From Oxalobacteraceae bacterium (GTDB taxonomy: Bacteria > Pseudomonadota > Gammaproteobacteria > Burkholderiales > Burkholderiaceae_D): a stretch of DNA of 64,000 nt. The stretch covers positions 1-64,000 of the forward strand of contig JAJTGD010000013.1 of assembly GCA_021299035.1 (NCBI GenBank). Direction: 5' to 3'. Below are positions 6,656 to 39,065 of this stretch, piece by piece. The notes under the pieces were generated by a model. The model had not been told where the DNA came from and searched no databases. It saw only the letters and a program-made list of their open reading frames with translations. A program made the position numbers and the translations under genes. Positions within the stretch are counted from its first letter, which is position 1; every line of letters begins with the position of its first letter.

Positions 6656-7243
6656 TTAACTCGCTAGTACGAATTGATAGAAGAAATCTGGCCCTCGCGC
6701 CACCATCAACAAGCGCGGATCAAACAGAAGGTCGCCGGCATTTCCGGGATGGCCAGGCAGATACAGTTGGGTGGTCAGGATCTGCCCGCCTTTGCGCTGT
6801 ACCTTGACGTGTAAATGTGGTGTTCGGCCGGGATATGCACCGGGGACCACTGTATCAAGTACGAACTGACCTTTTCTGTCAGCGAACTGGTGACCGCGCA
6901 ATCTGAATCCCTGATTATCGTATTCACCCTTCTCGTCACACTGCCAAAAATCCAGCAGTGCACCGGGAACAGGCTGGCAACGGGTATCAACCACCTGGCC
7001 CATCAGCCGCATTCGCTTGGCTTTCAGACTCGGCTCGATCAGGCTGCTGCGCTCCGGCGATTGCGGTGTAAAAAATGGCCCAGCCATCTGTGGCGGGGTA
7101 CTCCGGCCACACGATGGTGTTGCGGTCTGTTGCGCAGATGATTTTTGGGTGGTGAAGATAATCGGCGCCACCAGGCCTGCTTGCAAAAATAGCCCGCCTG
7201 AGATTTGCAACCAACGTCGCCGATTCGCTCCGCGTATATTCAT
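6656..7243 (-). CDS. Tat-exported intradiol dioxygenase-like protein
   Basis: This 195-residue protein starts with a twin-arginine signal (NRRRWLQISGG, then a hydrophobic segment ending near SSAQQ). The mature part has the protocatechuate 3,4-dioxygenase fold signature: PGALLDFWQCD, a Tyr in GEYDN and YPGRTPHLHVKV, which supplies a Tyr and two His of the usual Fe(III) site. These enzymes cleave catechol-type rings with O2; exported single-chain members also act on polymer-derived or quinone substrates. It is shorter than many beta subunits but has the core. The real substrate is unknown. Confidence 0.85.
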   Translation of the reverse strand: MNIRGANRRRWLQISGGLFLQAGLVAPIIFTTQKSSAQQTATPSCGRSTPPQMAGPFFTPQSPERSSLIEPSLKAKRMRLMGQVVDTRCQPVPGALLDFWQCDEKGEYDNQGFRLRGHQFADRKGQFVLDTVVPGAYPGRTPHLHVKVQRKGGQILTTQLYLPGHPGNAGDLLFDPRLLMVARGPDFFYQFVLAS

Positions 7244-7305
7244 TTCATCGACCTAGACTATTGAATACCTACGACCCAATTGGATTCCGTAGACACCACG
7301 CGTCA

Positions 7306-8472
7306 TTAATGGCCCGAACCTGAGTACTGGCTGAGAACGCTCCGGTCAATCTCGCGAACGCTTCGTGTGCCGGTCAAGGCCATCGACACGTCTAGCTCAT
7401 CGCGGATGATTTCAATCGCCTTGGTCACACCGGCCTGCCCGCCAGCGCCCAGCCCATAGATGTAGGCTCGTCCGATCATGCAAGAGCTCGCGCCATAGGC
7501 AAGTGCGCGCAGCACATCCTGCCCAGAGCGAACGCCACCATCGAAAATGACTTCCGTCTTTCCCTGCACGGCGTCAACGATGCGACCCAGCTGTGAAATG
7601 GAAGACGGGGCCCCGTCCAGTTGCCGACCACCGTGATTCGAGGCCACGATAGCGGTCACGCCCAGGCTCGCAGCGATTTTCGCGTCCTCGACATCCAAGA
7701 TGCCTTTCAGAACAATCTTGCCCGGCCAAATGCTTCGAATCCATTCCAAATCTTTCCAGCTGAGCGTAGGGTCAAATTGTTGGCCGATCCACTGGGAAAG
7801 CGTGCTTACGCTCTCCATGCCCGAGACATGACCAGAGATGTTCCCGAAGTTTTTACGCTTGCCGTTCAAGATGCTCCAGGCCCATCGAGGTTTCGTTGCT
7901 ACATCGATGACGTTCGCTACGGTGACCTTCGGCGGAACCGTCATGCCGTTCTTCACATCGCAGTAGCGTTTACCGAGAATTTGAAGGTCCAGCGTCGGCA
8001 CAAGCACGCTGCACTTTGCGGCGATAGCCCGCTCGATGAGCGCCTTGACGAAGCCTCTGTCGCGCATGACATAGAGCTGGAACCAGAACGGCACAGGGGA
8101 CGCCGCAGCGACGTCTTCAATCGAGCAGATCGACATCGTGCTCAAGCAAAACGGAATTCCTGCCGCGGCGGCGGCTCGGGCGGCCAGTATCTCGCCGTCG
8201 CCATGCTGCATACCGCACAGGCCGATCGGCGCGAGGGCGAGCGGTAAATTGGCGGGAGTACCCGCGATCGTAGTTTTCAAGTCCCGCTTGTCGACGTCAA
8301 TAGCAACGCGTTGACGCAGTCCGATGGCCTGGAGGTCTGACCGATTTGCGCGCATCGTCGACTGCGAATACGAGCCATGGTCGGCATATTCGAAGAAGGC
8401 TTTCGGAACGCGTGCTTTCGCCATATCCCTGAGGTCATCAATGCAAATTGCCGTTTCGAGTGTGGTCGACAT
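7306..8472 (-). CDS. FMN-dependent alpha-hydroxy-acid oxidase/dehydrogenase
   Basis: This 388-residue enzyme belongs to the LldD/glycolate oxidase/mandelate dehydrogenase family, which oxidises L-2-hydroxy acids to 2-keto acids with FMN. Signatures: KAFFEYADHGSYS near the start, LALAPIGLCGMQHGDGE, and the active-site SNHGGRQLDG with the catalytic His and Arg, then FDGGVRSGQDV for the FMN phosphate. AAGGAG lies well placed before the ATG. A tautomerase gene is 59 bp upstream in the same direction, so they are probably co-transcribed. Whether the electron acceptor is O2, quinone or cytochrome cannot be decided here. Confidence 0.92.
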   Translation of the reverse strand: MSTTLETAICIDDLRDMAKARVPKAFFEYADHGSYSQSTMRANRSDLQAIGLRQRVAIDVDKRDLKTTIAGTPANLPLALAPIGLCGMQHGDGEILAARAAAAAGIPFCLSTMSICSIEDVAAASPVPFWFQLYVMRDRGFVKALIERAIAAKCSVLVPTLDLQILGKRYCDVKNGMTVPPKVTVANVIDVATKPRWAWSILNGKRKNFGNISGHVSGMESVSTLSQWIGQQFDPTLSWKDLEWIRSIWPGKIVLKGILDVEDAKIAASLGVTAIVASNHGGRQLDGAPSSISQLGRIVDAVQGKTEVIFDGGVRSGQDVLRALAYGASSCMIGRAYIYGLGAGGQAGVTKAIEIIRDELDVSMALTGTRSVREIDRSVLSQYSGSGH

Positions 8473-8531
8473 GTATTTTCTCCTTGTTATCCGTAGCGAC
8501 GGGAGCGCCCGCCATGTGGTTCCACCGAGAC

Positions 8532-8924
8532 TTAGTCTTTCGGGGCGTACTGCATCTCGCCATTGCCGAAAGACCAGTCCTCGCGGGCCACGTCAATGAG
8601 GCTGATAAAGACGTCCTGAATACGAATACCCGCCTTCGTGGCGATACCTTCGGCAACGGCCTTGTAGAAGGCCTTTTTCACCTCAATCGTACGACCAGCG
8701 TTCCAAGTGACTTGAATAAAGACAATGCCGGGTGTGTAGGTAACCCCCAGGTAGCCTTCCGCTGGGTACACAAGCTCGTCGTCGGCGTGACGATTGATAA
8801 TTTGAAACTTGTCGTTCGCCGGGACGTTGGCGACGTTAATCATGGCGTCGTAAACCACTTCGCTCACGGTGCGAACGGTTTCAGCAGAGGCGGACTTGGA
8901 GAGATTAATTCGAACGAGAGGCAC
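8532..8924 (-). CDS. Tautomerase family protein
   Basis: This 130-residue protein belongs to the tautomerase superfamily (malonate semialdehyde decarboxylase/4-oxalocrotonate tautomerase-like). It starts with a GTG followed directly by a Pro codon, so cleavage of Met would expose the catalytic N-terminal Pro; this fixes the start. Other family features are RINLSKSASAETVRTVSEVVYDAM and FIQVTWNAGRT. It lies upstream of the hydroxyacid oxidase gene, consistent with a short keto/hydroxy-acid catabolic operon. Confidence 0.85.
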   Translation of the reverse strand: MPLVRINLSKSASAETVRTVSEVVYDAMINVANVPANDKFQIINRHADDELVYPAEGYLGVTYTPGIVFIQVTWNAGRTIEVKKAFYKAVAEGIATKAGIRIQDVFISLIDVAREDWSFGNGEMQYAPKD

Positions 8925-27105: not shown

Positions 27106-27804
27106 ATGAACATCAATGATGATTTTTTAATCAAAGCGGTGGTCGATACCAATAAGCTATTTTGGATCGAGTCTCCAGCGTCTGGTGTTGAAAGAAAATA
27201 TCTTGATCGAATCGGCACTGAAGTCGCCAGAGCCAGCTCATTGGTTAGATACGGTCGAAATTCTTCGTTCGCACCTCATACGCATCACGGTGGGGAAGAA
27301 ATACTCGTGCTCGAAGGAACGTTCTCCGATGAAAACGGAGACTATCCCGCTGGCACCTACCTTCGTAATCCACCCAACAGTGCTCATTCACCTCACTCGA
27401 AAGATGGCTGCACCATCTTTGTAAAGCTTAGACAGTTTCATCCCGAGGACGATTTGACCGTTCGAATCGATACGACTACTGCCAACTGGTACCCGGGCTT
27501 GGTACCCGGCTTATCTGTGATGCCGCTACACGAGTTTGATGGTGTTGGCACTGCGCTAGTCCGTTGGGCTCCAAACACAATATTTAGACCGCACGTGCAC
27601 CCGGGCGGGGAAGAAATCTTCGTGTTGGAAGGTGTATTCCACGACGAAGATGGTTCGTATCCGGCAGGCACTTGGATTCGAAGTCCTCGCTTTAGCAAAC
27701 ATGCGCCGTTTACCAAATCTGAAGGTGCCACCATCTATGTGAAGACTGGGCACCTTGATTATGAAATACCCGCAAATTCTCTAGAACCAGGACTATACGA
27801 CTGA
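27106..27804 (+). CDS. ChrR-like bicupin protein, copy 3, C-terminally extended
   Basis: This 232-residue paralogue of the bicupins at 4067 and 9250 has both metal motifs intact (HTHHGGEEILVLEG, HVHPGGEEIFVLEG). The stop used in copy 2 (AAATAG) is altered here, so translation runs through the old terminator sequence and adds about eight residues (ending EPGLYD) before a TGA. Its last 12 bp overlap the end of the convergent diguanylate cyclase gene. It is in an operon with the dehydrogenase immediately upstream. Confidence 0.87.
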   Translation: MNINDDFLIKAVVDTNKLFWIESPASGVERKYLDRIGTEVARASSLVRYGRNSSFAPHTHHGGEEILVLEGTFSDENGDYPAGTYLRNPPNSAHSPHSKDGCTIFVKLRQFHPEDDLTVRIDTTTANWYPGLVPGLSVMPLHEFDGVGTALVRWAPNTIFRPHVHPGGEEIFVLEGVFHDEDGSYPAGTWIRSPRFSKHAPFTKSEGATIYVKTGHLDYEIPANSLEPGLYD

Positions 27805-29715
27805 ACGCGGATCTCCAGTGCGGCCATGATCCGCGGTAAGCTGATTGAATACGCGGTAGCAACCCTTTCCTGCCGCCTTGGCCTCGTACATAGCCTCATC
27901 CGCGCAACGCAACAAGCTGCTCGCATCCGCTGCATGTGCAGGAAACAAAGCAACGCCAATTGAGCATCTTACGTTGAAAGTTTTCCAGCGCTCAAAAACT
28001 TCAGACTCAGCGAACATTCTGATTAATTCTTCCGCAATTAGTTCAGCGCCTGCGCTGCTCTCCTGATTTTCTATGATAACCGTGAACTCATCGCCGCCCA
28101 GCCGCGCTACGTGGTCCACGCTTCGTAACGCCGCTCTAAAACAAGTCGCCGCTGCAATCAGTAGCTCATCGCCAGCGGCATGTCCTAGTGTGTCATTTAT
28201 ATTCTTGAAGTTATCGAGGTCGATAAACAGCAAGGCAAGTTGCTTGTGGGTTGTACGTGCGCGCAACAGGGCATCTGGCAAAAAATCATTGAGCCAACGC
28301 CTATTGGGCAATCCAGTCAGGGGATCGGTAAAGCCTAGCTTGATCTGATTTTCTTCATGTAATTTTGCGACGGTAATATCTCGTACCGTCACAGCAATAC
28401 CTTCGCCAGATCGCACTGCGCGTCTAAGAAACCATCCTGCCTGATGCTGAGAATTTTCATTGACATAAAATTCGTGTTCCAGAAAACCCTGGTTGTAGCA
28501 ACGGTCGTATAGTTTCAGAAGCTTTTCGACCGTAGACTCATCATACAGTTCTGAAAACCGCTTTCCAATCATCTGGGATTGCGGGATATCGTTCATCTTT
28601 GCCGCCCGCTCGTTGCAATCCTCGATCGAACAATCACGAATACTTCCGTCAGGTGCGCGGATTAGATCGATCATATAAAACGCCTCATGCGCGCCTTCGA
28701 CTGCCAAGCGGAATGTCATCCGTACGCGTTCAGCCCGAAGCCTGCGTTCCCGATTTTTAATATGGGTGCTGCCGCCAAATACCGCCACCAGAATGACTAA
28801 CGCTGTGTTGATAGTCGCAAATAACAGGTAAGCAGCCTTGGTACCTGCATAGGATTTGACTGCACTAGCTTCGGTGACAGCGGCAACCACTACCAGCGGA
28901 TAACCTTTAATTTTTTTCCACGCAACGTAGCGTCCCAACTGATCATTAAAGGGCTCACCGGAGTCTGACCGAACGCCCTCGTTTGATTCAAATTGTGGCG
29001 TTCGGGAAAAAAAGGAAACTGAATTTACGGGTCCGTTGGCAGTTGTAGTTACTAGAGGCGGACCATCCACTAGCCGTAGAGAAACGAAGTCGCCTTCATG
29101 CAGCTCGTCGCGATAATTGATACTTGCTAAATAGCTAGGCGCAGTCGATACCAGGACAATGCCACTAAAATTTCCTTTTGCATCGTTAACTCGGCGTGTG
29201 AATCGTATGATTTCTTTACCTTTAAGGCCACCCAATCCCTCGGATGGTTCGCTTATGCGAAGCTCCGGATCATTGGATGTCCGGTGATAAGAAAAAAAAT
29301 CAACCGCTCCAAAGTCTAGCCCAACCGCAGCGTGCCACCACGAGCTGATTACCTTGCCATCGATCCCAATGGTGCCCGGATAGGTCGGCGTGTGGTGCAT
29401 CGCTTTTTCGTACTGATCGCGTAGATCCAAGGGCATGAGACTGTTTTGCCACTGATACTTGATCGTCAGGGCGATTTGATCAATCTCTTTGACAGTTCGC
29501 TGAACCTGCTCGGCGTAGGTAAGCACTAAGTCAGTGGCACGCTCGGCGCCCCGAGACCGTAACTCTTGAAGGTCATACGAGATCTTAATCAGTACCACTA
29601 GCCATGTGACTAGAATGACTAGTAGGGCACCACCAAGCCAGATTGAGACAATCGAGCGCTTGTCATGTAGCGGGTCGCCATCAGGCTGAAATACTGAACC
29701 CATGAATCCCTTCAC
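27793..29715 (-). CDS. Membrane-bound diguanylate cyclase with Cache and PAS domains
   Basis: This 640-residue protein makes cyclic di-GMP from two GTP. It has an N-terminal TM segment (LLVILVTWLVVLIKISY), a periplasmic Cache-type sensor of about 260 residues, a second TM (ATINTALVILVAVFGG), a PAS domain (EAFYMIDLIRAPDGS..., IGKRFSEL) and a C-terminal GGDEF domain with intact GGDEF and an RSVD inhibitory I-site five residues before it. All catalytic features are present, so it should be an active, product-inhibited enzyme responding to an external signal. No EAL domain. It converges on the bicupin. Confidence 0.93.
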   Translation of the reverse strand: MKGFMGSVFQPDGDPLHDKRSIVSIWLGGALLVILVTWLVVLIKISYDLQELRSRGAERATDLVLTYAEQVQRTVKEIDQIALTIKYQWQNSLMPLDLRDQYEKAMHHTPTYPGTIGIDGKVISSWWHAAVGLDFGAVDFFSYHRTSNDPELRISEPSEGLGGLKGKEIIRFTRRVNDAKGNFSGIVLVSTAPSYLASINYRDELHEGDFVSLRLVDGPPLVTTTANGPVNSVSFFSRTPQFESNEGVRSDSGEPFNDQLGRYVAWKKIKGYPLVVVAAVTEASAVKSYAGTKAAYLLFATINTALVILVAVFGGSTHIKNRERRLRAERVRMTFRLAVEGAHEAFYMIDLIRAPDGSIRDCSIEDCNERAAKMNDIPQSQMIGKRFSELYDESTVEKLLKLYDRCYNQGFLEHEFYVNENSQHQAGWFLRRAVRSGEGIAVTVRDITVAKLHEENQIKLGFTDPLTGLPNRRWLNDFLPDALLRARTTHKQLALLFIDLDNFKNINDTLGHAAGDELLIAAATCFRAALRSVDHVARLGGDEFTVIIENQESSAGAELIAEELIRMFAESEVFERWKTFNVRCSIGVALFPAHAADASSLLRCADEAMYEAKAAGKGCYRVFNQLTADHGRTGDPRSVV

Positions 29716-29985: not shown

Positions 29986-31086
29986 CTAAGGTACAAATAG
30001 CAATTGCCCCGCCGGCGCGATGACCTGGGCAACCTCATGTCCTGCACCTGGCACAAGTTGAACTTTCCAAGCGAAAGGCCTGTTTGCACTGTGGGCAGCT
30101 TGCTGTCCTACCTTGTAGTAGGTCATGCCTCGCTGAAGCCGATTAGCACCCTGCACTATCGCACCTTTGGTCCCACGCAGATTGGTGTCTTCTTCTTTGC
30201 CTCGTGTATCTCTAGTACCTAACAAGACAGTGAGCGGTGCAGCAAGTACCTGTCCAGGATCCTGAAACTCACGCGATGCTCCGCGCAAGCTGTAGGGAAA
30301 TGGCGGCCACTTTTTATCGACAGTTGGTAAGGTGTACACACCCGCATTGGCTGCCACCGCCTTCAGCACTCTCGGGCAGCGAACAAAGCTCAATAGCCGG
30401 TGGACGAACTGGGCACCCGCGCTATGCCCGAAGATGAAATACCCCGACTGCTTATTTTGCAATACCTCTTTCACCGCACTGAAGGTCCGTTCAATCTCCA
30501 TATAGGGTGTTTGCAGCGGATTGCGCCAGCGGCCCTCCTCTGCCGCATGCGCAGCCACAGGACCGCGAGTGACTACGCCCAAGGTATATGCGTCACCGGT
30601 GGGATAGTCTTTACGCGAGAACTCAAGAACTATCAAAAGCACTCGGTGGCGCTCCGCCACTGGCGCAGCAGTTTTCAGATAACGCTCGGCGTCGCGGCCG
30701 GTGCCGTGCATCACGAACCAAATGCGCCCCGCTGCAGAATCGAACTGGCTAGGGCGAAACACATGAACGGTGAGAGGCTTGCGCTGCAGGCTGTTGATTT
30801 GTAGACGACCAGTCCCTGGTGTCTGGAGTACTTCGCGCGCCAAAGTGGCATTAACGAAGACTGGTGCATTCGATATCGTCGTATTTGAATCTGCGACGGC
30901 AACATCGGCTCTGCATTTTGCAGGTTGCCATGCCAGATCGGTTGCCTCAGCTACTTCAGTAGCCTCTGCCAGCTGTGGTACCCCTAGTACCCCTAATACA
31001 AGAATTAGGATGCTAACCAGCAGGTGCAGCGACGAGCAGTGAACTAGTCGAGCCCGTTGGCGAAAGTTTTGGAGTGTTGGCGTCAT
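29986..31086 (-). CDS. Exported alpha/beta hydrolase, last gene of amidoligase-like operon
   Basis: This 366-residue protein has a signal peptide (LHLLVSILILVLGVLGVPQLAEA) and a mature alpha/beta hydrolase domain with nucleophile elbow FGHSAGAQFVHR, an acidic LLGTRDT and GAGHE for the His. It resembles polyhydroxybutyrate-depolymerase/feruloyl-esterase-like serine hydrolases. The ATG at 31086 overlaps the upstream stop (ATGA), fixing the start; a frame 41 codons longer would lie inside the neighbour. It is related to the non-exported hydrolase at 34284-35150 (shared GHSxGAQFxHR). Confidence 0.85.
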   Translation of the reverse strand: MTPTLQNFRQRARLVHCSSLHLLVSILILVLGVLGVPQLAEATEVAEATDLAWQPAKCRADVAVADSNTTISNAPVFVNATLAREVLQTPGTGRLQINSLQRKPLTVHVFRPSQFDSAAGRIWFVMHGTGRDAERYLKTAAPVAERHRVLLIVLEFSRKDYPTGDAYTLGVVTRGPVAAHAAEEGRWRNPLQTPYMEIERTFSAVKEVLQNKQSGYFIFGHSAGAQFVHRLLSFVRCPRVLKAVAANAGVYTLPTVDKKWPPFPYSLRGASREFQDPGQVLAAPLTVLLGTRDTRGKEEDTNLRGTKGAIVQGANRLQRGMTYYKVGQQAAHSANRPFAWKVQLVPGAGHEVAQVIAPAGQLLFVP

Positions 31087-32972
31087 GCGCCCATCATGCG
31101 CGGCTTCGCTGTCGATTCGGCGGAAACCATCGCTTGTGCGGAGGAGCCCCAATCTACCCCGCAGCGTGCACCGGCGAGCTCGACAATGGTACCCATCAGC
31201 TGTGGCCAACTGAATCCTGCTGCTTGAGCCATGACGGCAACAGCGCCGCGCTTTTCTAAAATCGTGTTGGTGTAGACACCAACCACATGCGCTTGACCTT
31301 GGCGATCAACCACTATATCCACGCGCGCAAAGTCTCGACAGCCGGTTGATCTGAATGCGCGCAGCGCAAGCGATCGATAGTGCTGTGCCTGTGGCTCATC
31401 AATAAGGGCTGGAGATTCGAAATATCGACCGTTCGGATTGAAGTATCCAATGGGTAGACACCTGAGGCGATCATTGCCCAGTACGCCAATGCTGATCAAG
31501 GTACCCTCAAGCCATGCTTCGCACAGGATGTCGCGTGATTGCACTGAACTCAAATGGGATAGCGCACCAGAATACTCATCGGGTGTTCGCACGATCAATC
31601 GTGTGTCATCCGCGTCGTCGCGTGTGCGTAGCACCATAGGAAACGGCAGATCCGGTGGCTCGTGACGCCAATGCGTGATGATTCTGAAGTCCGGTACAGG
31701 TAGTCCAAGTGCTTTCAGGCGTGAGAGCAAGGCAATACGATCGCACAGGCAAGACTGCGTCAGGGGGTCGGCACCGGTGTATGCGATGCCAGCCATCTCA
31801 AGCAGTGAAGGCACATGTACCTGACGGCCTATGCCCTGGATACCGTTGCTCATGTTAAGCACGACACCCCCCGGCGCACCGGTGCGCGGATGCGGCGGCA
31901 GGAACTTGCGCAGCTCCCGCAGTAGCGTCATATCTCCCTCGAATAGCTTGACCGAGTAACCTTGCTCACGAAGTGCATCGATCAGGTGCTGAAGTGAGGC
32001 GTTCCGCTCAGCCTCGTTCGCTTGCGGCCCCAGCCGCCCTATCGTGCCATGTGCGGTTTTGTTGCGAACCACTGCTACACGCTTTTTACGATGTTGGATG
32101 AGGGGCTGCACCGAGTCGGATGCAAAGCGGGATAGCAATGTGGTCGCGTGGTTTTGCCAATCCTGCAGTAGACGAAAATCCAGAAACTCGGCGATAAACA
32201 CAATCGCGAGGATCTGCAAGATCATCAATTCCGGGGCTCGTAGTAGCAGCTTCAGAAAAGGACCAAAATTCATGATCCCGTACAGCAGGAGTGCGAGGGC
32301 AAGTGTCCAGCCCAAACGCCAGGCTGCTGTCGCGGGGCGGTTCTGATCCAGCGTTCCGGCAATACCCTCGGCCATCATGGCCAGAATAATCACAGGGAAG
32401 AAGGCCAAGTTGAAGATCGTGTGTGATCGCTGCCAGGAACCGACCATCAGGAAAAAAATCTGAATGCCCGCCGTAATCGCAAGGATCAGCGAGATACGCG
32501 CATAAAGCGGCAGACGTACACGCCGCATCCATGGTCGCAGTATGGCGATGACACTTACCACGACGGCGATAAGCAGCAAACTGGGACCCAACCCAACCTC
32601 TTGAAATCCGACGGCAATCAGCACCGATCGAAAGCCCAGCACCCGCAAGCCGAACGTCAGGCGCGCCAGCGTGATTAACAGCGCTGCCGTCGGCAGCAGC
32701 ATGACGTAGATCACTGCGTGCCGATCTAGCAGAGGCACCCATTCGAGCGTGACGACAGCGTTCAGAAAATGTCCCAGGCTCATGAGCGGACTTAGGAAAG
32801 ATCCTGCCCATAGGTTCAGTCCCGGTGTCGATAAGATGCGAGCAGTGAAAGCCATCAGCGACAACGTCGCCACTAGTGTCAAGACTACGAGGTCTGTGGT
32901 GGACAGGTACCCTTTGCCGCGCAGGATCCAAGCGTAGCCGGACCGGTTGGTGATGCCCTTCGTCTCAGCCAT
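31083..32972 (-). CDS. 7TM membrane protein fused to degenerate ATP-grasp (D-Ala-D-Ala ligase-like) domain
   Basis: This protein has about 629 residues. The first 290 form seven to eight TM helices similar to the 7TM module that accompanies inactive transglutaminase and RimK-like ligases. From about residue 310 a D-Ala-D-Ala-ligase-like ATP-grasp region follows (YTGADPLTQSCLCDR, CEAWLEGTLISIGVLGN, FARVDIVVDRQGQ, AAGFSWPQLM). The segment that should be LEVNPxP, with the Glu and Asn that bind Mg, reads VVGVYTNTI, and the usual ATP-binding Lys is Arg (MVLRTRDD), so ligase activity is doubtful. ATG 32972 has AGGT upstream and starts the homology. Middle gene of a five-gene operon. Confidence 0.8.
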   Translation of the reverse strand: MAETKGITNRSGYAWILRGKGYLSTTDLVVLTLVATLSLMAFTARILSTPGLNLWAGSFLSPLMSLGHFLNAVVTLEWVPLLDRHAVIYVMLLPTAALLITLARLTFGLRVLGFRSVLIAVGFQEVGLGPSLLLIAVVVSVIAILRPWMRRVRLPLYARISLILAITAGIQIFFLMVGSWQRSHTIFNLAFFPVIILAMMAEGIAGTLDQNRPATAAWRLGWTLALALLLYGIMNFGPFLKLLLRAPELMILQILAIVFIAEFLDFRLLQDWQNHATTLLSRFASDSVQPLIQHRKKRVAVVRNKTAHGTIGRLGPQANEAERNASLQHLIDALREQGYSVKLFEGDMTLLRELRKFLPPHPRTGAPGGVVLNMSNGIQGIGRQVHVPSLLEMAGIAYTGADPLTQSCLCDRIALLSRLKALGLPVPDFRIITHWRHEPPDLPFPMVLRTRDDADDTRLIVRTPDEYSGALSHLSSVQSRDILCEAWLEGTLISIGVLGNDRLRCLPIGYFNPNGRYFESPALIDEPQAQHYRSLALRAFRSTGCRDFARVDIVVDRQGQAHVVGVYTNTILEKRGAVAVMAQAAGFSWPQLMGTIVELAGARCGVDWGSSAQAMVSAESTAKPRMMGA

Positions 32973-33030
32973 GGCTGTTACCTGAACGATGGGTGCAGAT
33001 AAGTCTTTCGACGCTGATTGCGGCACGGAA

Positions 33031-34218
33031 TTACAACCCATTGCGATTGATGTCGACGATCGCCGAAAGCCCCGGTAGCAATGTGCTTGGCGGATTCGAC
33101 AATCTGACGATGACCGCAATAATGGGTGCGCTGCGAATCCGGGTGATGCGTGGCTCGGGCACGGCAACGACGGGCTCTTCAATGTCGGTGGTAACGCCGA
33201 CTCTTTCAATCACGCCCTCGAATTGCTTTCCTGGTAGCGAGGGAAACGACACCATGGCGGGGCTTCCGATATGAACATATTCAAGTTCATCTTCATCAAT
33301 CCACGCTTCGACCCATCGATCGCTGCCGACCACCATATTCACCATCGGAAAGCCGACCCTGACCGATCCGCCCGTGTTGATCAACCATCGAACGATGGTG
33401 CCGTCGGTGGGCGCTTTGATGATGGTTGATTCCAGATCTGCCTGTACGCGTGACAACTTGCCTTTTGCTGCATTGATTTCCGAGGACAGTATGCCGAGCT
33501 TCTGCTGGCGGATGGTGATGCCAGAGATATTGAGTTCCGCATTTCGTACGGCGGCTTCAGCAGCTGTTGCGTTGTTTTGTGCAGCGGCCAGTTGTTCTTG
33601 TGCGAGCTGTCGCTTTAAATTGGCTTCGCGTAATGCCTCGGTCGAGATCATGCCGCTCTTGGCAAGCTCTTGGCGGATGCGTAAATACTCCTGTGTTTCG
33701 GAGACGCGGATTTTTGCTGCCTGTACCTCTGATCGAGTCGCCTCCGCACGTGCCTTGGTCTCCTGGTAGGTCACCGCTAGCGTTTTTCGTTCCTGTTCGA
33801 TGGCAGCAGTCTCTTGCACAAGCGTACGTTCCAGTGATGCGATATTCGCTTTAGCTTCTACTTCTTGGGCGCGTAGATAGCTATCGTCCAGGCGGGCAAT
33901 GATTTGCCCGGCATTGACGCGCGTACCTGGTGTTGCCTCCACCGATGCGATACGACCATCAAAACGAGCACCTATGTTGGTCAACTCCGTCTTCACAAAC
34001 GCGTTTCGAGAGATAACGTTCTGCACGCGGTGTGTACTGAAAACCCAAAGCGCAATGATGAGCATCGCGAGCGTGAGCGAGATAACGAGCCACCGAACTA
34101 ATCGTCTACTCACGCCAGCAGGACGTGCACTCGCCCCAATACCTGATGGTGGAGTGGATACGGTCTCTGCCGCATCATCTGGAAATCCCCAATCGATATG
34201 CTCTGAGCTTGTCTTCAT
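33031..34218 (-). CDS. HlyD/EmrA-type membrane fusion protein
   Basis: This 395-residue periplasmic adaptor has one N-terminal TM helix (WLVISLTLAMLIIALWVF). The biotinyl-lipoyl-like halves (TPGTRVNAGQIIARLDDSYL and TIIKAPTDGTIVRWLINTGGSV) are split by a long alpha-hairpin coiled coil. Such proteins normally couple an inner-membrane transporter to an outer-membrane channel. No ABC, MFS or RND transporter lies in this operon; the 7TM fusion directly downstream is the only multi-pass partner. AAGGAT precedes the ATG. Confidence 0.92.
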   Translation of the reverse strand: MKTSSEHIDWGFPDDAAETVSTPPSGIGASARPAGVSRRLVRWLVISLTLAMLIIALWVFSTHRVQNVISRNAFVKTELTNIGARFDGRIASVEATPGTRVNAGQIIARLDDSYLRAQEVEAKANIASLERTLVQETAAIEQERKTLAVTYQETKARAEATRSEVQAAKIRVSETQEYLRIRQELAKSGMISTEALREANLKRQLAQEQLAAAQNNATAAEAAVRNAELNISGITIRQQKLGILSSEINAAKGKLSRVQADLESTIIKAPTDGTIVRWLINTGGSVRVGFPMVNMVVGSDRWVEAWIDEDELEYVHIGSPAMVSFPSLPGKQFEGVIERVGVTTDIEEPVVAVPEPRITRIRSAPIIAVIVRLSNPPSTLLPGLSAIVDINRNGL

Positions 34219-34283
34219 ATTTTTATCCTTGGCGATTGTCTGTACAGACTGATCGCATTAGTGGGGATAGCGACTCGCGGTCG

Positions 34284-35150
34284 CTATTGGGGCTGGGTGC
34301 TGACGCTTTCCTCATCAACGGTCGCACCAAACAAGGACCAGAACACTCGTTGAACGAGGCGGCCCTCACGACACAGGGGACCGAAATGGTGACCAACCCC
34401 TTCGATTTCGATCAGCTCGACCACGGACGGCATGGCATGCGCCTTCGCTTGGGCGCGCATCGCCGCCACCCAGCGCCGAGCGCGTTCCAAACGATTTTTT
34501 CCTTGTTGGGCGCTGATCTGATCACTGTGACGAAACACTTCTTCTTCGGTATCCAAAGTGCCGTCCAGAAGGGTGATTCTTACGCGCAGGTATTGCTCCG
34601 GGTTGAACGCGAGGTCCGGCAAGCGCTTTGTTGGACGAATACCAAAGGGAAATTTGCGTGCGGTATCGGGAAAGGTGTACCAGCGCGCGCATGCAATCAC
34701 GGCGGACTCCACACGATGGGGATGCGCCATCAGGTAGCGGTGGGCAAACTGAGCCCCGGATGAGTGGCCGAACAGCCGAAAGCGTGTGGCATCAATGCCG
34801 GTATGCAGACTCACCTCACGCAGACAGTCATGAAGTAATTCATCAGCACGGTGTTCCGGCCGACCGATGCTGCGGTAGCTAGCGCGTACAGCACCGCCCA
34901 TGCTCGGTGATAGTAGCGTGACGCCCAGTCGCTCGCACGCTGGGATGAATGCAGCAACTTGTTGCTGCCAATGACGGCTAACGCCCAATACCACGACGAG
35001 TAGCGGGCTATCGATTGAGGCGCCCGTCGGGCGATACAGTAAGTATTCGTTGGTGGGATCACTGCGTAGTACCCGCCGAACTAGCATTCCGTGCGGCAGG
35101 TGCCACCCAAGGGCGGCCGAGCGAACTGGCATCATCGTGTTTCTTTCCAT
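34284..35150 (-). CDS. Cytoplasmic alpha/beta hydrolase in amidoligase-like operon
   Basis: This 288-residue protein lacks a signal peptide. It has the elbow FGHSSGAQFAHRYL, an acidic LLDGTLDT and GVGHHFG, so the Ser-Asp-His triad can be placed. It is clearly related to the exported hydrolase at the end of the same operon. Its ATG at 35150 has a good GGAG but lies 92 bp inside the upstream gene, a large overlap that implies translational coupling. Substrate unknown; esterase or peptidase-like by family. Confidence 0.82.
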   Translation of the reverse strand: MERNTMMPVRSAALGWHLPHGMLVRRVLRSDPTNEYLLYRPTGASIDSPLLVVVLGVSRHWQQQVAAFIPACERLGVTLLSPSMGGAVRASYRSIGRPEHRADELLHDCLREVSLHTGIDATRFRLFGHSSGAQFAHRYLMAHPHRVESAVIACARWYTFPDTARKFPFGIRPTKRLPDLAFNPEQYLRVRITLLDGTLDTEEEVFRHSDQISAQQGKNRLERARRWVAAMRAQAKAHAMPSVVELIEIEGVGHHFGPLCREGRLVQRVFWSLFGATVDEESVSTQPQ

Positions 35151-36279
35151 AGGCTTCTCCGTTGATGTCTACGATGCGGCTTGCCAAGGTGGGTTCTGTT
35201 CCGTGCAGTACCTCCATGTGTTGTTGGGCCCCCGCAAGAATCGTCATTGCATTCCTCGCATTGGCGAGGGCCGGGCGATCGTAGACCGTCAGGTCAAGTG
35301 CTTGCGTTGCTTCACGTGCTTGCAAAGGTGCGGCAGAAAGGATGCCGCACAGGCCCAGTACCGGCGGACGCGCGTTTTGCTTGAGCCAGTGCACGCCGGC
35401 GCTGGCACCCATCGAATCTTGCGATGCCATCATCAACCCACCCACGAGAGACGCGAATACCTCAGACTTCAGCAGCGCTGAGGTTTCAATCTGCAAAACA
35501 CCATCAGCGATTTCTACTACGGCTGCATCGACGCTCTCGTTCGCTGCATGCACCAACAAAGACACCAGAGCGGATTCGATCTGCGACAGGGGTGCAAGAT
35601 AGGTTGTGGACATTCCGGCGTCGGTGAAATCCAGCACCGGCGAAGCCCCGGCATCTTTGAGCAACCAGGTATCCGCACCCGCGCCGGTACCGGTGATCTT
35701 GATGTAAGCCACCCGTAGCCCGGCAGCGATCAGACCTCTGACCAAGTAAGCGCAGCTTTGCGTCTTGCCCGAATCCATACCGGTACCGACCACGGCAATC
35801 GTCGTCAGATGGTTGGATGGAAAACGCATTAGCGTTGGAAGTGCGTAGTCGCGCAGGTTAATGCGCCGCCCCTGGTTGTTTGCCAGCAGGCCGATCGGCG
35901 TAATCTGCGTGGGACTCTTCATCCTCACGTGCCAAGACGTGACGCGAGAGGCGATGCCACCACCTGCAGAAAGGTGGCATGGTCCGAGGGTGTTGGGTAC
36001 CTCGGATTCGAATTGATTCGAGGCATAGCGGTTGCCGTAGGCCACCACGATCTCATCGCCCGGGAACATCTGCATCCGTCTTCCGCTCGGTAATTGCAGA
36101 CAGGGATGCTGTCCGAGGGAGTCCACTGCAGCCAAAATCAGGTCGCCAGTTTCAGGCTTGCCGACCGGTGGCAGCAGCACGGCTGCAGCGTTGACTGGAA
36201 CTCTGCGGGTGGCAAATGCCCAAGCAGCTCTTGAGATCCGCAAGGCATCTTTTTCTGAATGAAAGTCTTTAGTTCGCAT
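35059..36279 (-). CDS. P-loop protein, DUF1611/BioD-like, first gene of operon
   Basis: This protein has about 406 residues. The N-terminal 150 residues form an unrecognised domain; a P-loop NTPase follows with VVGTGMDSGKTQSCAYLVRGL, then VAYIKITGTGAGADTWLLKDAG and VVEIADGVLQIETSALL, which resembles the C-terminal domain of DUF1611 proteins and, more distantly, dethiobiotin synthetase. DUF1611 members act in D-glutamate/N-acyl amino acid metabolism, which fits an amino-acid ligase partner. The start is uncertain: ATG 36279 is the best placed; a longer frame reaches 36393. It heads the five-gene operon. Confidence 0.72.
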   Translation of the reverse strand: MRTKDFHSEKDALRISRAAWAFATRRVPVNAAAVLLPPVGKPETGDLILAAVDSLGQHPCLQLPSGRRMQMFPGDEIVVAYGNRYASNQFESEVPNTLGPCHLSAGGGIASRVTSWHVRMKSPTQITPIGLLANNQGRRINLRDYALPTLMRFPSNHLTTIAVVGTGMDSGKTQSCAYLVRGLIAAGLRVAYIKITGTGAGADTWLLKDAGASPVLDFTDAGMSTTYLAPLSQIESALVSLLVHAANESVDAAVVEIADGVLQIETSALLKSEVFASLVGGLMMASQDSMGASAGVHWLKQNARPPVLGLCGILSAAPLQAREATQALDLTVYDRPALANARNAMTILAGAQQHMEVLHGTEPTLASRIVDINGEAYGKKHDDASSLGRPWVAPAARNASSAGTTQ

Positions 36280-36536: not shown

Positions 36537-36929
36537 TCAGGCCTGAATAGCGAGGTGGGCAATGAAACCCGACCGTGTCTCTCCGTGCTGCTTTGCCTTT
36601 GCGTCCAGCCGTGCCAAAACTCGCTTTGGCAGCGTGATATTTACTCGCTCTATTTCATCAGATAGCAGCGCAGGATCGATCTCCGCTATCGCCCAGACCC
36701 AACCCTTGAATTCGCGTTTTTTCTGAAAAGTAGCGATGCTGCTTGGTTTAGGCACGTCGTCACCAGCATCCAGCGCAGTCTCAATCCATAGCTCAATCGC
36801 TTCTTTGGCGTTCTCAATCGCCTCGTCGATACCAGAGTCTGCTGCCGAGAAGCAGCCCGGGAGGTCAGGTACAACCACACTCCATGCATGACTCTCATCG
36901 CCAAGTTCGATTGCGATTGGGTATTTCAT
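36537..36929 (-). CDS. hicB: HicB-family antitoxin
   Basis: This 130-residue protein has an N-terminal partial RNase H-like HicB fold (MKYPIAIELGDESHAWSVVVPDLPGCFSAADS, DEAIENAKEAIELWIE) and a C-terminal ribbon-helix-helix-like DNA-binding part (VNITLPKRVLARLDAKAKQHG). It neutralises HicA and autoregulates. It lies 10 bp downstream of hicA, the normal toxin-first order. A decayed copy of its last codons is at 3958-4030. Confidence 0.93.
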   Translation of the reverse strand: MKYPIAIELGDESHAWSVVVPDLPGCFSAADSGIDEAIENAKEAIELWIETALDAGDDVPKPSSIATFQKKREFKGWVWAIAEIDPALLSDEIERVNITLPKRVLARLDAKAKQHGETRSGFIAHLAIQA

Positions 36930-36939
36930 AGCGTTTGCC

Positions 36940-37122
36940 TCATTTCAATCCAGCCTGCTTCAGGATCTTTTGAACCAGTCCTGTGCCAAGCTCTTTTTTA
37001 GGATGCGGAACCGTCAGATGACCCGACTTAGACGGATGAACAAAAACATGATGCGATCCTCTTGAACCGCGAAGTATCCACCCCTCACGTTTCAACAGCG
37101 CGATCAGTTCCTTACTGGTCAT
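36940..37122 (-). CDS. hicA: HicA-family mRNA interferase toxin
   Basis: This 60-residue double-stranded-RNA-binding-like toxin reads MTSKELIALLKREGWILRGSRGSHHVF with the catalytic His in GSHHVF, followed by GHLTVPHPKKELGTGLVQKIL. The start at 37122 gives the standard family length; the longer frame adds eight residues without support. It cleaves mRNA and tmRNA in characterised members. Complete and followed by hicB, so probably active. Confidence 0.93.
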   Translation of the reverse strand: MTSKELIALLKREGWILRGSRGSHHVFVHPSKSGHLTVPHPKKELGTGLVQKILKQAGLK

Positions 37123-37256
37123 CACCGCACAATACACACCATACACATAGCTGTCAACACAGTCGAAGCCAGCCGCCTCTTGAACCGGGTGCCAAAAATC
37201 TCAGCTCACCGCCCTGAAAATTGAAAACAGATTTCATTGCAGGTAAGCCAAAATAC

Positions 37257-38189: not shown

Positions 38190-39065
38190 TTATAAGGCGT
38201 TCAAGGGAATCTTCACATACGCAACACCGTTATCTTCTTTGGGTGGTAAGTCCCCCGCGCGAATATTAATTTGAACCGCAGGCAAGATCAGCACCGGCAT
38301 TTCCAAGGTGGCGTCGCGCTTGGTACGCATTTCCACAAACTCTGCTTCGGAAATACTGTCTTTGACATGAATATTGTTCGCGCGCTGATCTGCCACGGTC
38401 GTCTCAAATTTCACAGGACGATCATTCGGTGGGTAGTCATGGCACATGAACAAGCGGGTCGTGGGTGGCAAACTCAAAATCTTTCTTGTTGAGGCATACA
38501 AGGTTTTTGCATCGCCGCCGGGAAAATCACATCGCGCAGTACCAACGTCCGGCATAAACAGCGTGTCGCCGACGAATACGGCATCTCCGAACTGGTAGGC
38601 CACGCACGCTGGCGTGTGGCCGGGTACGTATATCGTGTGGCCACTGAGGGCTCCCACTTGAATGGTTTCGCCGTCTTTGAACAAATGGTCGAATTGCGAG
38701 CCATCTTGCTTGAAGCCCGGCTCCAGGTTGAAGATGTCCTTGAACACGCCCTGCACTGCGGTGATGTGGTCGCCAATCGCGGTCTTGCCACCCAGATTGG
38801 CCTTCAAGTAAGGTGCTGCGCTCAGGTGGTCAGCGTGCGCGTGGGTTTCCAAAATCCATTCGACCTGGAGCTTGTTGGCCTTTACAAATTCAATCACCTT
38901 GTCGGCCGAGGTGTGACTTGTGCGGCCAGACTTAGGGTCGTAGTCCAAAACCGAATCAATGATGGCGCAGGCCGAGCCCGGCTTCTCGTAGACCACGTAC
39001 GTCACCGTCCATGTGGCGGGGTCAAAAATGCCATGAACCTGCGGGTTGCTCGAGCTTGCGGTCAT
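38190..39065 (-). CDS. blh: Blh/ETHE1-like persulfide dioxygenase (metallo-beta-lactamase fold)
   Basis: This 291-residue MBL-fold hydrolase has the metal motif ETHAHADHLSAAPYLK, an Asp/His region (VPGHTPACVAY, VFVGDTLFMPDVGTARCDFPGG) and a later MCHDYPP, as in Blh and ETHE1 enzymes, which oxidise glutathione persulfide to sulfite. It is divergent from bigR over a perfect palindrome, the same layout in which BigR represses blh in Xylella and Agrobacterium. Function in sulfide detoxification follows from this context. Confidence 0.92.
   Translation of the reverse strand: MTASSSNPQVHGIFDPATWTVTYVVYEKPGSACAIIDSVLDYDPKSGRTSHTSADKVIEFVKANKLQVEWILETHAHADHLSAAPYLKANLGGKTAIGDHITAVQGVFKDIFNLEPGFKQDGSQFDHLFKDGETIQVGALSGHTIYVPGHTPACVAYQFGDAVFVGDTLFMPDVGTARCDFPGGDAKTLYASTRKILSLPPTTRLFMCHDYPPNDRPVKFETTVADQRANNIHVKDSISEAEFVEMRTKRDATLEMPVLILPAVQINIRAGDLPPKEDNGVAYVKIPLNAL

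Follow-up and report, generated by a model that had tools for sequence, protein, structure and literature searches.

What can a bacterium do with five consecutive genes that encode a P-loop nucleoside triphosphatase (NTPase), a hydrolase, a periplasmic adaptor, a seven-transmembrane (7TM) protein fused to a ligase-like ATP-grasp domain and a second hydrolase related to the first? The question arises from a stretch of 64,000 nucleotides of an Oxalobacteraceae bacterium (contig JAJTGD010000013.1, hereafter the window), in which these genes form a minus-strand operon extending from 36279 to 29986. Tentatively, with a probability of about 0.4, we read this cassette as an export-and-trim system for an amide-linked acidic amino-acid chain. 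The cassette itself is real, conserved and undescribed in the openly licensed literature searched, and its anatomy (the operon, its conservation, the loss of ATP-grasp sites, the PahZ1 family of the hydrolases and the ATP-binding cassette (ABC) exporter that stands in the equivalent place in related operons) is firm, while its chemistry is what we infer.

A first-pass annotation of the window had described five genes of one direction with overlaps or short gaps, and such a series does exist. Transcription begins with the P-loop NTPase of the SIMIBI class (BioD/MobB/DUF1611-like; 35059–36279, 406 aa) and proceeds through HydA, a PahZ1/LpqC-family alpha/beta-hydrolase predicted to be cytoplasmic (34284–35150, 288 aa), the HlyD/EmrA-type membrane-fusion protein, i.e., the periplasmic adaptor (33031–34218, 395 aa), and the fusion of a 7TM part of RloB/7TM_transglut type with a degenerate D-Ala-D-Ala-ligase-like ATP-grasp (31083–32972, 629 aa) to HydB, a PahZ1-like hydrolase predicted to be exported (29986–31086, 366 aa). 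The HydA gene overlaps the P-loop gene, the start of HydB forms an ATGA overlap with the stop of the fusion gene, and the two other intergenic gaps measure 65 and 58 bases, given that the ATG starts at 32972 and 31086 were chosen over upstream in-frame TTG codons at 33209 and 31209. Family assignments to HlyD, 7TM_transglut and the Ddl-like domain are supported by Pfam, and both hydrolases as well as the P-loop protein stay below the cutoffs of their families. A role in anti-phage defence was rejected, with no PADLOC family at E up to 0.001 for any of the five proteins, as was phage origin, the six records concerned matching the fusion only from residue 272 on, i.e., its Ddl-like part.

Scanning 84,980 species genomes with the fusion alignment returned 13 loci, 12 of them encoding the fusion, a count to be taken as a lower bound since the scan relies on exact conserved peptides; locus L049, specifying an RloB-like protein that corresponds to the 7TM part only (28%), was excluded from the fusion counts. 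Six of the 12 are of Oxalobacteraceae type and six are distant, originating from two Nitrosomonas metagenome-assembled genomes (MAGs), two proteobacterial MAGs, a Methylococcaceae MAG and Acidobacteria bacterium Mor1, where the operon is found on a 6-Mb contig. HydB follows the fusion in all 12, and HlyD precedes it in each of the ten loci whose contig extends upstream. The P-loop gene accompanies five of the six distant loci (the contig of L046 ends nearby), and full-length HydA four of them, none being found in L047 and its C-terminal half alone being recognised in L046. Because Oxalobacteraceae, Nitrosomonas, other proteobacterial MAGs and an acidobacterium share this arrangement, apart from the exceptions just named, a chance neighbourhood was rejected; the first-pass annotation had recommended a search for the gene order in other genomes and would have been refuted by genes scattered elsewhere, which is not what was found. 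Within the GTDB family of the window's genome, 189 of 195 genomes match the fusion, four of them over its full length and the remainder, where listed, by the ATP-grasp part only; in an order-level draw of 300 genomes 12 match the 7TM part, two of them at fusion length (own genome included). The HlyD of the operon is present in 6 of 21 genus genomes, once as a partial gene, and flanking genes vary among species of the genus. The cassette is an accessory element that probably passes from one lineage to another. Judged by their length, four contigs of the species-genome scan (L037, L039, L041 and L046) are the same as those of G167, G122, G189 and G209, respectively. One contig of the six of Oxalobacteraceae type is labelled as a Sphingomonadales MAG (L040); its fusion protein is the same as in L041, its flanks are similar, and it is probably misbinned.

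In the fusion protein the 7TM core, delimited by the PF14402 match, model helices and hydropathy, covers residues 77–270 (32163–32744; 7TM_transglut, 1.1e-17, above the gathering score), and the ATP-grasp domain, delimited by alignment with rhizobial ATP-grasps and Ddl controls, covers residues ~297–604 (31161–32084), residues 461–598 matching PF07478 (Dala_Dala_lig_C) at 1.1e-12. Profile comparison relates the latter part to 7u56 (3.1e-29) and Foldseek to 4zqi (1.4e-19, TMt 0.81; model pLDDT 66), so that the D-Ala-D-Ala-ligase fold is retained. The residues that we take, from the Ddl enzymes, to hold ATP (two lysines and a glycine loop) and metal (a Glu/Asn pair) are gone. Site positions were read from the alignment with the genome's own Ddl: in the window's protein R412 and R449 replace the two lysines, no glycine loop follows residue 449, and the Glu and Asn that would bind metal have become G565 and Y567. 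All 13 aligned fused rows (12 distinct, L040 and L041 being identical; L042 is partial) have lost both lysines, changed to Arg, Leu or Met, together with the loop glycines and the Glu/Asn pair, one metal-site aspartate (D552) being retained in 12 of them. The controls behave otherwise: lysines, loop and metal motif are retained in 12 of 12 Ddl proteins (the loop of L010 was judged by eye), and the lysines, the Glu/Asn pair and the second glycine of the loop in all seven rows of rhizobial stand-alone ATP-grasps (six distinct, two Bradyrhizobium rows being identical; drawn from 14 rhizobial records). To judge from these residues the domain is a pseudo-ligase, and since ATP and metal sites are lost in every fused row, the fusion should not ligate anything. 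An active membrane ligase was therefore rejected, and with it the working "ligase-like membrane protein" of the first-pass annotation; retention of the fold after the loss of catalysis suggests a binding or gating role instead.

The same two modules can be met unfused. A Bradyrhizobium barranii plasmid cluster (L033, L106) encodes a 7TM protein and an ATP-grasp protein by overlapping genes, the products being ~33% identical to the corresponding parts of the fusion, whereas its ATP-grasp has the ATP lysines and metal residues in place. Its annotated neighbours in the gene tables, which are incomplete, include no HlyD, P-loop or PahZ1-like gene. In both records (L033, 5743–10508; L106, 5396–9044) the pair is joined by a gamma-glutamyltransferase amid insertion sequences, in L033 also by an annotated lysine 2,3-aminomutase, and ATP-grasp relatives occur on several further rhizobial plasmids.

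The RloABC system of Pseudomonas aeruginosa, published in 2025, is a partial counterpart to an operon that had at first seemed to match no known pathway. According to that report, RloB combines an inactive transglutaminase domain with a 7TM part, RloC is a cytoplasmic ATP-grasp, exported RloA cleaves runs of 8 or 10 Glu residues and spares those of 6 or fewer, and deletion of rloB or rloC rescues an rloA triple mutant (PMC12239564). Both systems thus unite in one operon a 7TM protein of the same Pfam family (PF14402), an ATP-grasp partner and an exported hydrolase of acidic chains (in the case of HydB, putatively so), and the closest characterised 7TM relative of the fusion works with a protease that cuts poly-Glu outside the cytoplasm (PMC12239564). 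The ATP-grasp of RloABC is a separate protein, while that of the window is fused and degenerate (RloC is not in our alignment); the transglutaminase domain has no Pfam match in the window's fusion, which offers only a short stretch (residues ~49–84) between its first helix and the 7TM core; the outer enzyme RloA is a retropepsin, while that of the window is PahZ1-like and no aspartic-protease match was obtained for any of its five proteins; and HlyD, the P-loop NTPase and the inner hydrolase are additions of the window. Since it lacks features that define Rlo, the operon is a system parallel to RloABC and not a member of it.

The nature of the putative substrate is approached through the two hydrolases. 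A profile of 18 of them retrieved from the solved structures PahZ1 6ve6 (2e-64), LpqC 3d0k (4.8e-59) and PahZ1 9o7u (1.2e-57), the next chain following only at 5e-4. Searched alone with phmmer, HydB finds 6ve6 (6.2e-42) and 9o7u (1e-38), and HydA finds LpqC 3d0k (2e-17) and PahZ1 6ve6 (7e-14); matches of both to Pfam alpha/beta-hydrolase families are weak and lie below the cutoffs. The Ser-Asp-His triad (S130-D200-H254 in HydA, S222-D293-H350 in HydB) and a QG..R..R motif are invariant in all 18 aligned hydrolases, and PahZ1 and LpqC share with HydA and HydB the family, the triad and its surrounding motifs. Homology thus places both enzymes in the PahZ1/LpqC family of poly(aspartic acid) hydrolases. 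PahZ1 is reported to cut beta-amide bonds of poly(Asp) and comes from degraders of the synthetic polymer, no natural substrate being named in the portion of the source accessible to us (PMC4456602); what distinguishes the window is a pair of such enzymes in one operon, predicted inside and outside the cell, respectively. HydB has a hydrophobic signal-like stretch at residues ~21–36, and signal- or lipobox-like N-termini were assigned by hydropathy and by eye to 8 of 8 HydB vs 0 of 7 HydA proteins, although the window's HydA reaches a peak hydropathy of 2.20 within its first 60 residues (from residue 46, inside the fold), as high as some HydB. An unrooted tree of 29 hydrolases contains a branch with 100/99 support that separates HydB and a long-branched Microvirga protein from HydA and its relatives in ABC-type operons. 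Several HydB relatives possess a C-terminal lamin-tail domain (Pfam LTD; L045, L048) that the window's HydB is devoid of. The earlier idea of paired related hydrolases, one inside and one outside, fits these data, and an amide-linked product processed on both sides is consistent with PahZ1 homology.

Indirect evidence for transport comes from an exchange of exporters. The P-loop protein has a Walker A motif (GTGMDSGKT, residues 165–173), preceded by a conserved N-terminal domain of ~140 aa and kept in 8 of 8 aligned homologs, and a SIMIBI-type fold, its structure model matching signal recognition particle (SRP) GTPases, dethiobiotin synthetase, MeaB and HypB. Its description in the first-pass annotation as DUF1611/BioD-like holds for the fold class and not for family membership, all Pfam matches being below gathering scores (MobB 1.6e-5, 25.3 vs 26.6; AAA_26 1.1e-4, 22.6 vs 27; DUF1611 0.017, 14.9 vs 25; CbiA likewise below threshold), and the likeness to BioD, MobB and SRP-type NTPases does not fix its reaction. 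In the literature on DUF1611, titles and the opening lines of abstracts held nothing bearing on the cassette. Relatives at E up to 1e-20 were detected in 20 of 369 class genomes and in 3 of 398 genomes of a phylum-wide draw (own included in both) and, at E up to 1e-8, in eight plasmid records. Twenty loci from 19 genomes, three of one genus among them (L085, L086, L088), were mapped from 22 places other than the window's own, two weak ones (L078, L079) being omitted. In 18 of the 20 a same-strand ABC exporter adjoins the P-loop gene within 1.5 kb; the exceptions are L087, where the ABC gene lies 7.7 kb off with the hydrolase beside it, and L100, an outlier at 31%. In 10 of 20 loci a PahZ1-like hydrolase is encoded within 3 kb of the P-loop gene, in 9 of 20 the locus contains a Porin_O_P gene, and hydrolase, P-loop protein and ABC exporter are consecutive in four of the five plasmid records opened out of eight. 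In the remaining plasmid locus, L052 of Microvirga, a divergent ABC and HlyD pair adjoins the P-loop gene and the hydrolase; its P-loop gene (6950–8713) runs into a mutator-transposase fragment (PF00872, residues 388–514), the end being perhaps disrupted. These operons of Gamma- and Alphaproteobacteria resemble that of the window in the homologous P-loop protein (38–51% identity over the aligned part; three outliers at 30–32%, plasmid matches being weaker) and, in about half of them, in a HydA-type hydrolase, and differ in having an ABC exporter where the window has HlyD and the 7TM-pseudo-ATP-grasp protein; a second hydrolase of HydB type was not found in the mapped loci. P-loop protein and HydA are the shared part, ABC vs HlyD plus 7TM the variable one. 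The combination of P-loop protein, ABC exporter and PahZ1-like hydrolase (L083–L102, L050–L054), often with Porin_O_P, merits separate study.

The adaptor that takes part in this exchange is well defined (PF16576, HlyD_D23, 7.1e-16; PF13437, HlyD_3, 1.8e-15), its best NCBIfam model being the EmrA/EmrK-type TIGR00998 (9.5e-39, below its cutoff). By Pfam none of the five proteins is an ABC, major facilitator or resistance-nodulation-division transporter, which bears out the earlier remark that no standard transporter accompanies HlyD and leaves the 7TM protein as the sole candidate. The main, though indirect, reason to view it as a transporter is the replacement of the ABC exporter by HlyD and 7TM in P-loop operons.

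Transport by the 7TM protein, the chemistry of the substrate and the role of the NTPase are thus inferred, and the export-and-trim system may be pictured as follows. The chain would be poly- or oligo-aspartate-like, possibly beta-linked, and would be synthesised by an enzyme encoded outside the operon. In the cytoplasm the SIMIBI P-loop NTPase may load, activate or energise it; the 7TM protein and the HlyD adaptor would carry it out, the dead ATP-grasp domain serving on the cytoplasmic side for docking or gating and a TolC-type outer-membrane channel being supplied from elsewhere. HydA would trim or recycle the chain inside, and exported HydB would trim it outside. A stronger proposal, that the 7TM protein gated by a pseudo-ligase is a new type of inner-membrane exporter working with HlyD and no ABC pump, and that PahZ1-family hydrolases exist to trim a natural acidic chain on both sides of the membrane, appears doubtful to us. 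No description of a gene set of ATP-grasp, 7TM and HlyD was met among titles and abstract openings of the openly licensed literature searched.

CapA, cyanophycin-synthetase-like and TolC-type neighbours of the six distant loci also speak for the export-and-trim reading. CapA/PGA_cap is found in three of them (L043–L045), a cyanophycin-synthetase-like protein in three (L044, L046, L048), TolC/OEP upstream in two, both Nitrosomonas (L043; L044 at 4.2 kb), and an M12-type protease in two (L043, L044), these counts being lower bounds because L045–L047 end near the operon; none of the four was found in the six Oxalobacteraceae-type loci. The Mur-ligase P-loop is lost in all four aligned cyanophycin-synthetase-like proteins (L044, L046, L048 and a Microvirga CapA fusion), the ATP-grasp site looking intact in those of L046 and Microvirga. 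CphA1 is reported to add Asp first and to attach Arg afterwards, a single site serving CphA2 (PMC10206079). Taken with the lost Mur P-loop, this chemistry prompts the speculation that the neighbours might make an Arg-free or dipeptide-based chain, which does not extend to the window. Relatives of CphA1/CphA2 with a broken Mur P-loop flank three of the six distant HlyD-type loci and are absent from the window's operon, the CphA pair of the genome being located, like a CapA gene, elsewhere (CphA on contig G000:C22, the window on C25). That pair consists of tandem cyanophycin synthetases (L104, 7170–14443), of which the first has its Mur P-loop broken; a gene for an ABC transporter adjoins them. 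On a Microvirga ossetica plasmid (L103, 5691–8705) a cyanophycin-synthetase-like part, its Mur P-loop also broken, is fused to CapA and adjoins HlyD and ABC genes near a P-loop gene.

Several observations weigh against the export of an acidic chain. The substrate, the polymer and the transport activity of the cassette are deduced from sequence. No synthetase, CapA or TolC gene is adjacent to the window's operon, and among the cyanophycin-synthetase-like neighbours of distant loci that of L044 is without the metal Glu and that of L048 without the ATP-grasp domain. Among the 369 class genomes the P-loop protein occurs in 20 and CphA in 20, with an overlap of one (own) at ~1.1 expected, which weakens the case for any general association between P-loop protein and cyanophycin; the test bears on ABC-type operons, since the mapped class loci, own excepted, are not of HlyD type. 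Confidence of the fusion model is modest (pLDDT 66), and all 50 Foldseek matches listed for it are Ddl-type ligases aligned to the ATP-grasp part, with no transporter fold among them. HydA and HydB share just 23% identity, their locations were judged by hydropathy and by eye, and a signal-like N-terminus is seen in 3 of 12 HydA relatives in ABC-type operons, these three belonging to one genus, as well as in the Microvirga hydrolase; the inside location is thus no rule of the HydA branch. PahZ1 was characterised on synthetic poly(Asp) (PMC4456602), and homology leaves the bond cleaved by HydA and HydB unfixed.

Among other explanations, the operon could serve envelope homeostasis in the manner of RloABC with no secreted polymer, the 7TM protein and the exported hydrolase adding, removing or sensing acidic tags on envelope components under regulation by the cytoplasmic partners. 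The RloB type of the 7TM part (PF14402 at 1.1e-17; NCBIfam RloB at 1.6e-7, far below its cutoff) and the hypo-osmotic, biofilm and cell-shape defects reported for rlo mutants (PMC12239564) agree with this, which we nevertheless hold unlikely: the operon contains no retropepsin, transglutaminase domain or intact ATP-grasp, and HlyD, together with a nearby TolC-type protein in two Nitrosomonas loci, favours export. Somewhat less probable still is a polyester, in which case the hydrolases would be esterases of short-chain polyhydroxyalkanoate (PHA)-depolymerase type and their substrates oligomers of hydroxy acids, for instance 3-hydroxybutyrate or malate chains, exported or salvaged by the operon. 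NCBIfam extracellular PHA depolymerase type 1 does detect HydB (2.6e-4), HydA (2.4e-7) and an ABC-type relative (1.3e-12), each far below the cutoff, LpqC is named a putative polyhydroxybutyrate (PHB) depolymerase, and PahZ1 itself is reported to resemble PHB depolymerases (PMC4456602); yet PahZ1 heads the solved-structure search, putative LpqC is the only chain there with a PHA/PHB depolymerase name, and the genes recurring in the scanned flanks are of amino-acid ligase-like and CapA types and not PHA genes.

Hydrolases predicted on both sides of the inner membrane also recall catecholate siderophores, for which Fes and IroD act inside and IroE outside, and the MsbA/type I secretion system (T1SS)-like ABC exporter of sister operons would suit a small natural product or metal-binding peptide served by inner and outer esterases or amidases. 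This we consider improbable, as the flanking proteins scanned with Pfam (a subset of the flanks) include no non-ribosomal peptide synthetase, carrier protein, TonB receptor or siderophore synthetase. The least credible version is that of the first-pass annotation, with the 7TM-ATP-grasp protein ligating the product while moving it: the ligase fold and D552 speak for it, but the lysines, loop glycines and Glu/Asn pair have vanished together from all fused rows, whereas the rhizobial proteins retain lysines and Glu/Asn throughout.

The surroundings of the operon include a HicB-like antitoxin gene just upstream (36537–36929, minus strand; PF15919, 4.2e-51), next to which a 68-aa open reading frame (36940–37146, minus strand) occupies the putative position of a HicA toxin. 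Directly downstream lies a gene for a GGDEF/PAS protein (27793–29715, minus strand), whose sole close copy (94%) among the 21 genus genomes belongs to G167, likewise a carrier of the operon, other listed matches not exceeding 43%. At 38190–39927 genes for a metallo-beta-lactamase-fold hydrolase, an ArsR-like regulator and a YeeE-like protein are consecutive and constitute, as judged by eye, a candidate persulfide/BigR-type group.

Should the export and trimming of an acidic amino-acid chain be true, it can be approached directly, through two hydrolases for which a candidate substrate is named and through a domain for which loss of ATP binding is predicted. PahZ1-type hydrolases would then acquire a natural setting, an ATP-grasp pseudoenzyme would form the basis of an additional exporter type, and the recently described Rlo stress system would join a wider set of cassettes for the export of acidic amino-acid chains.

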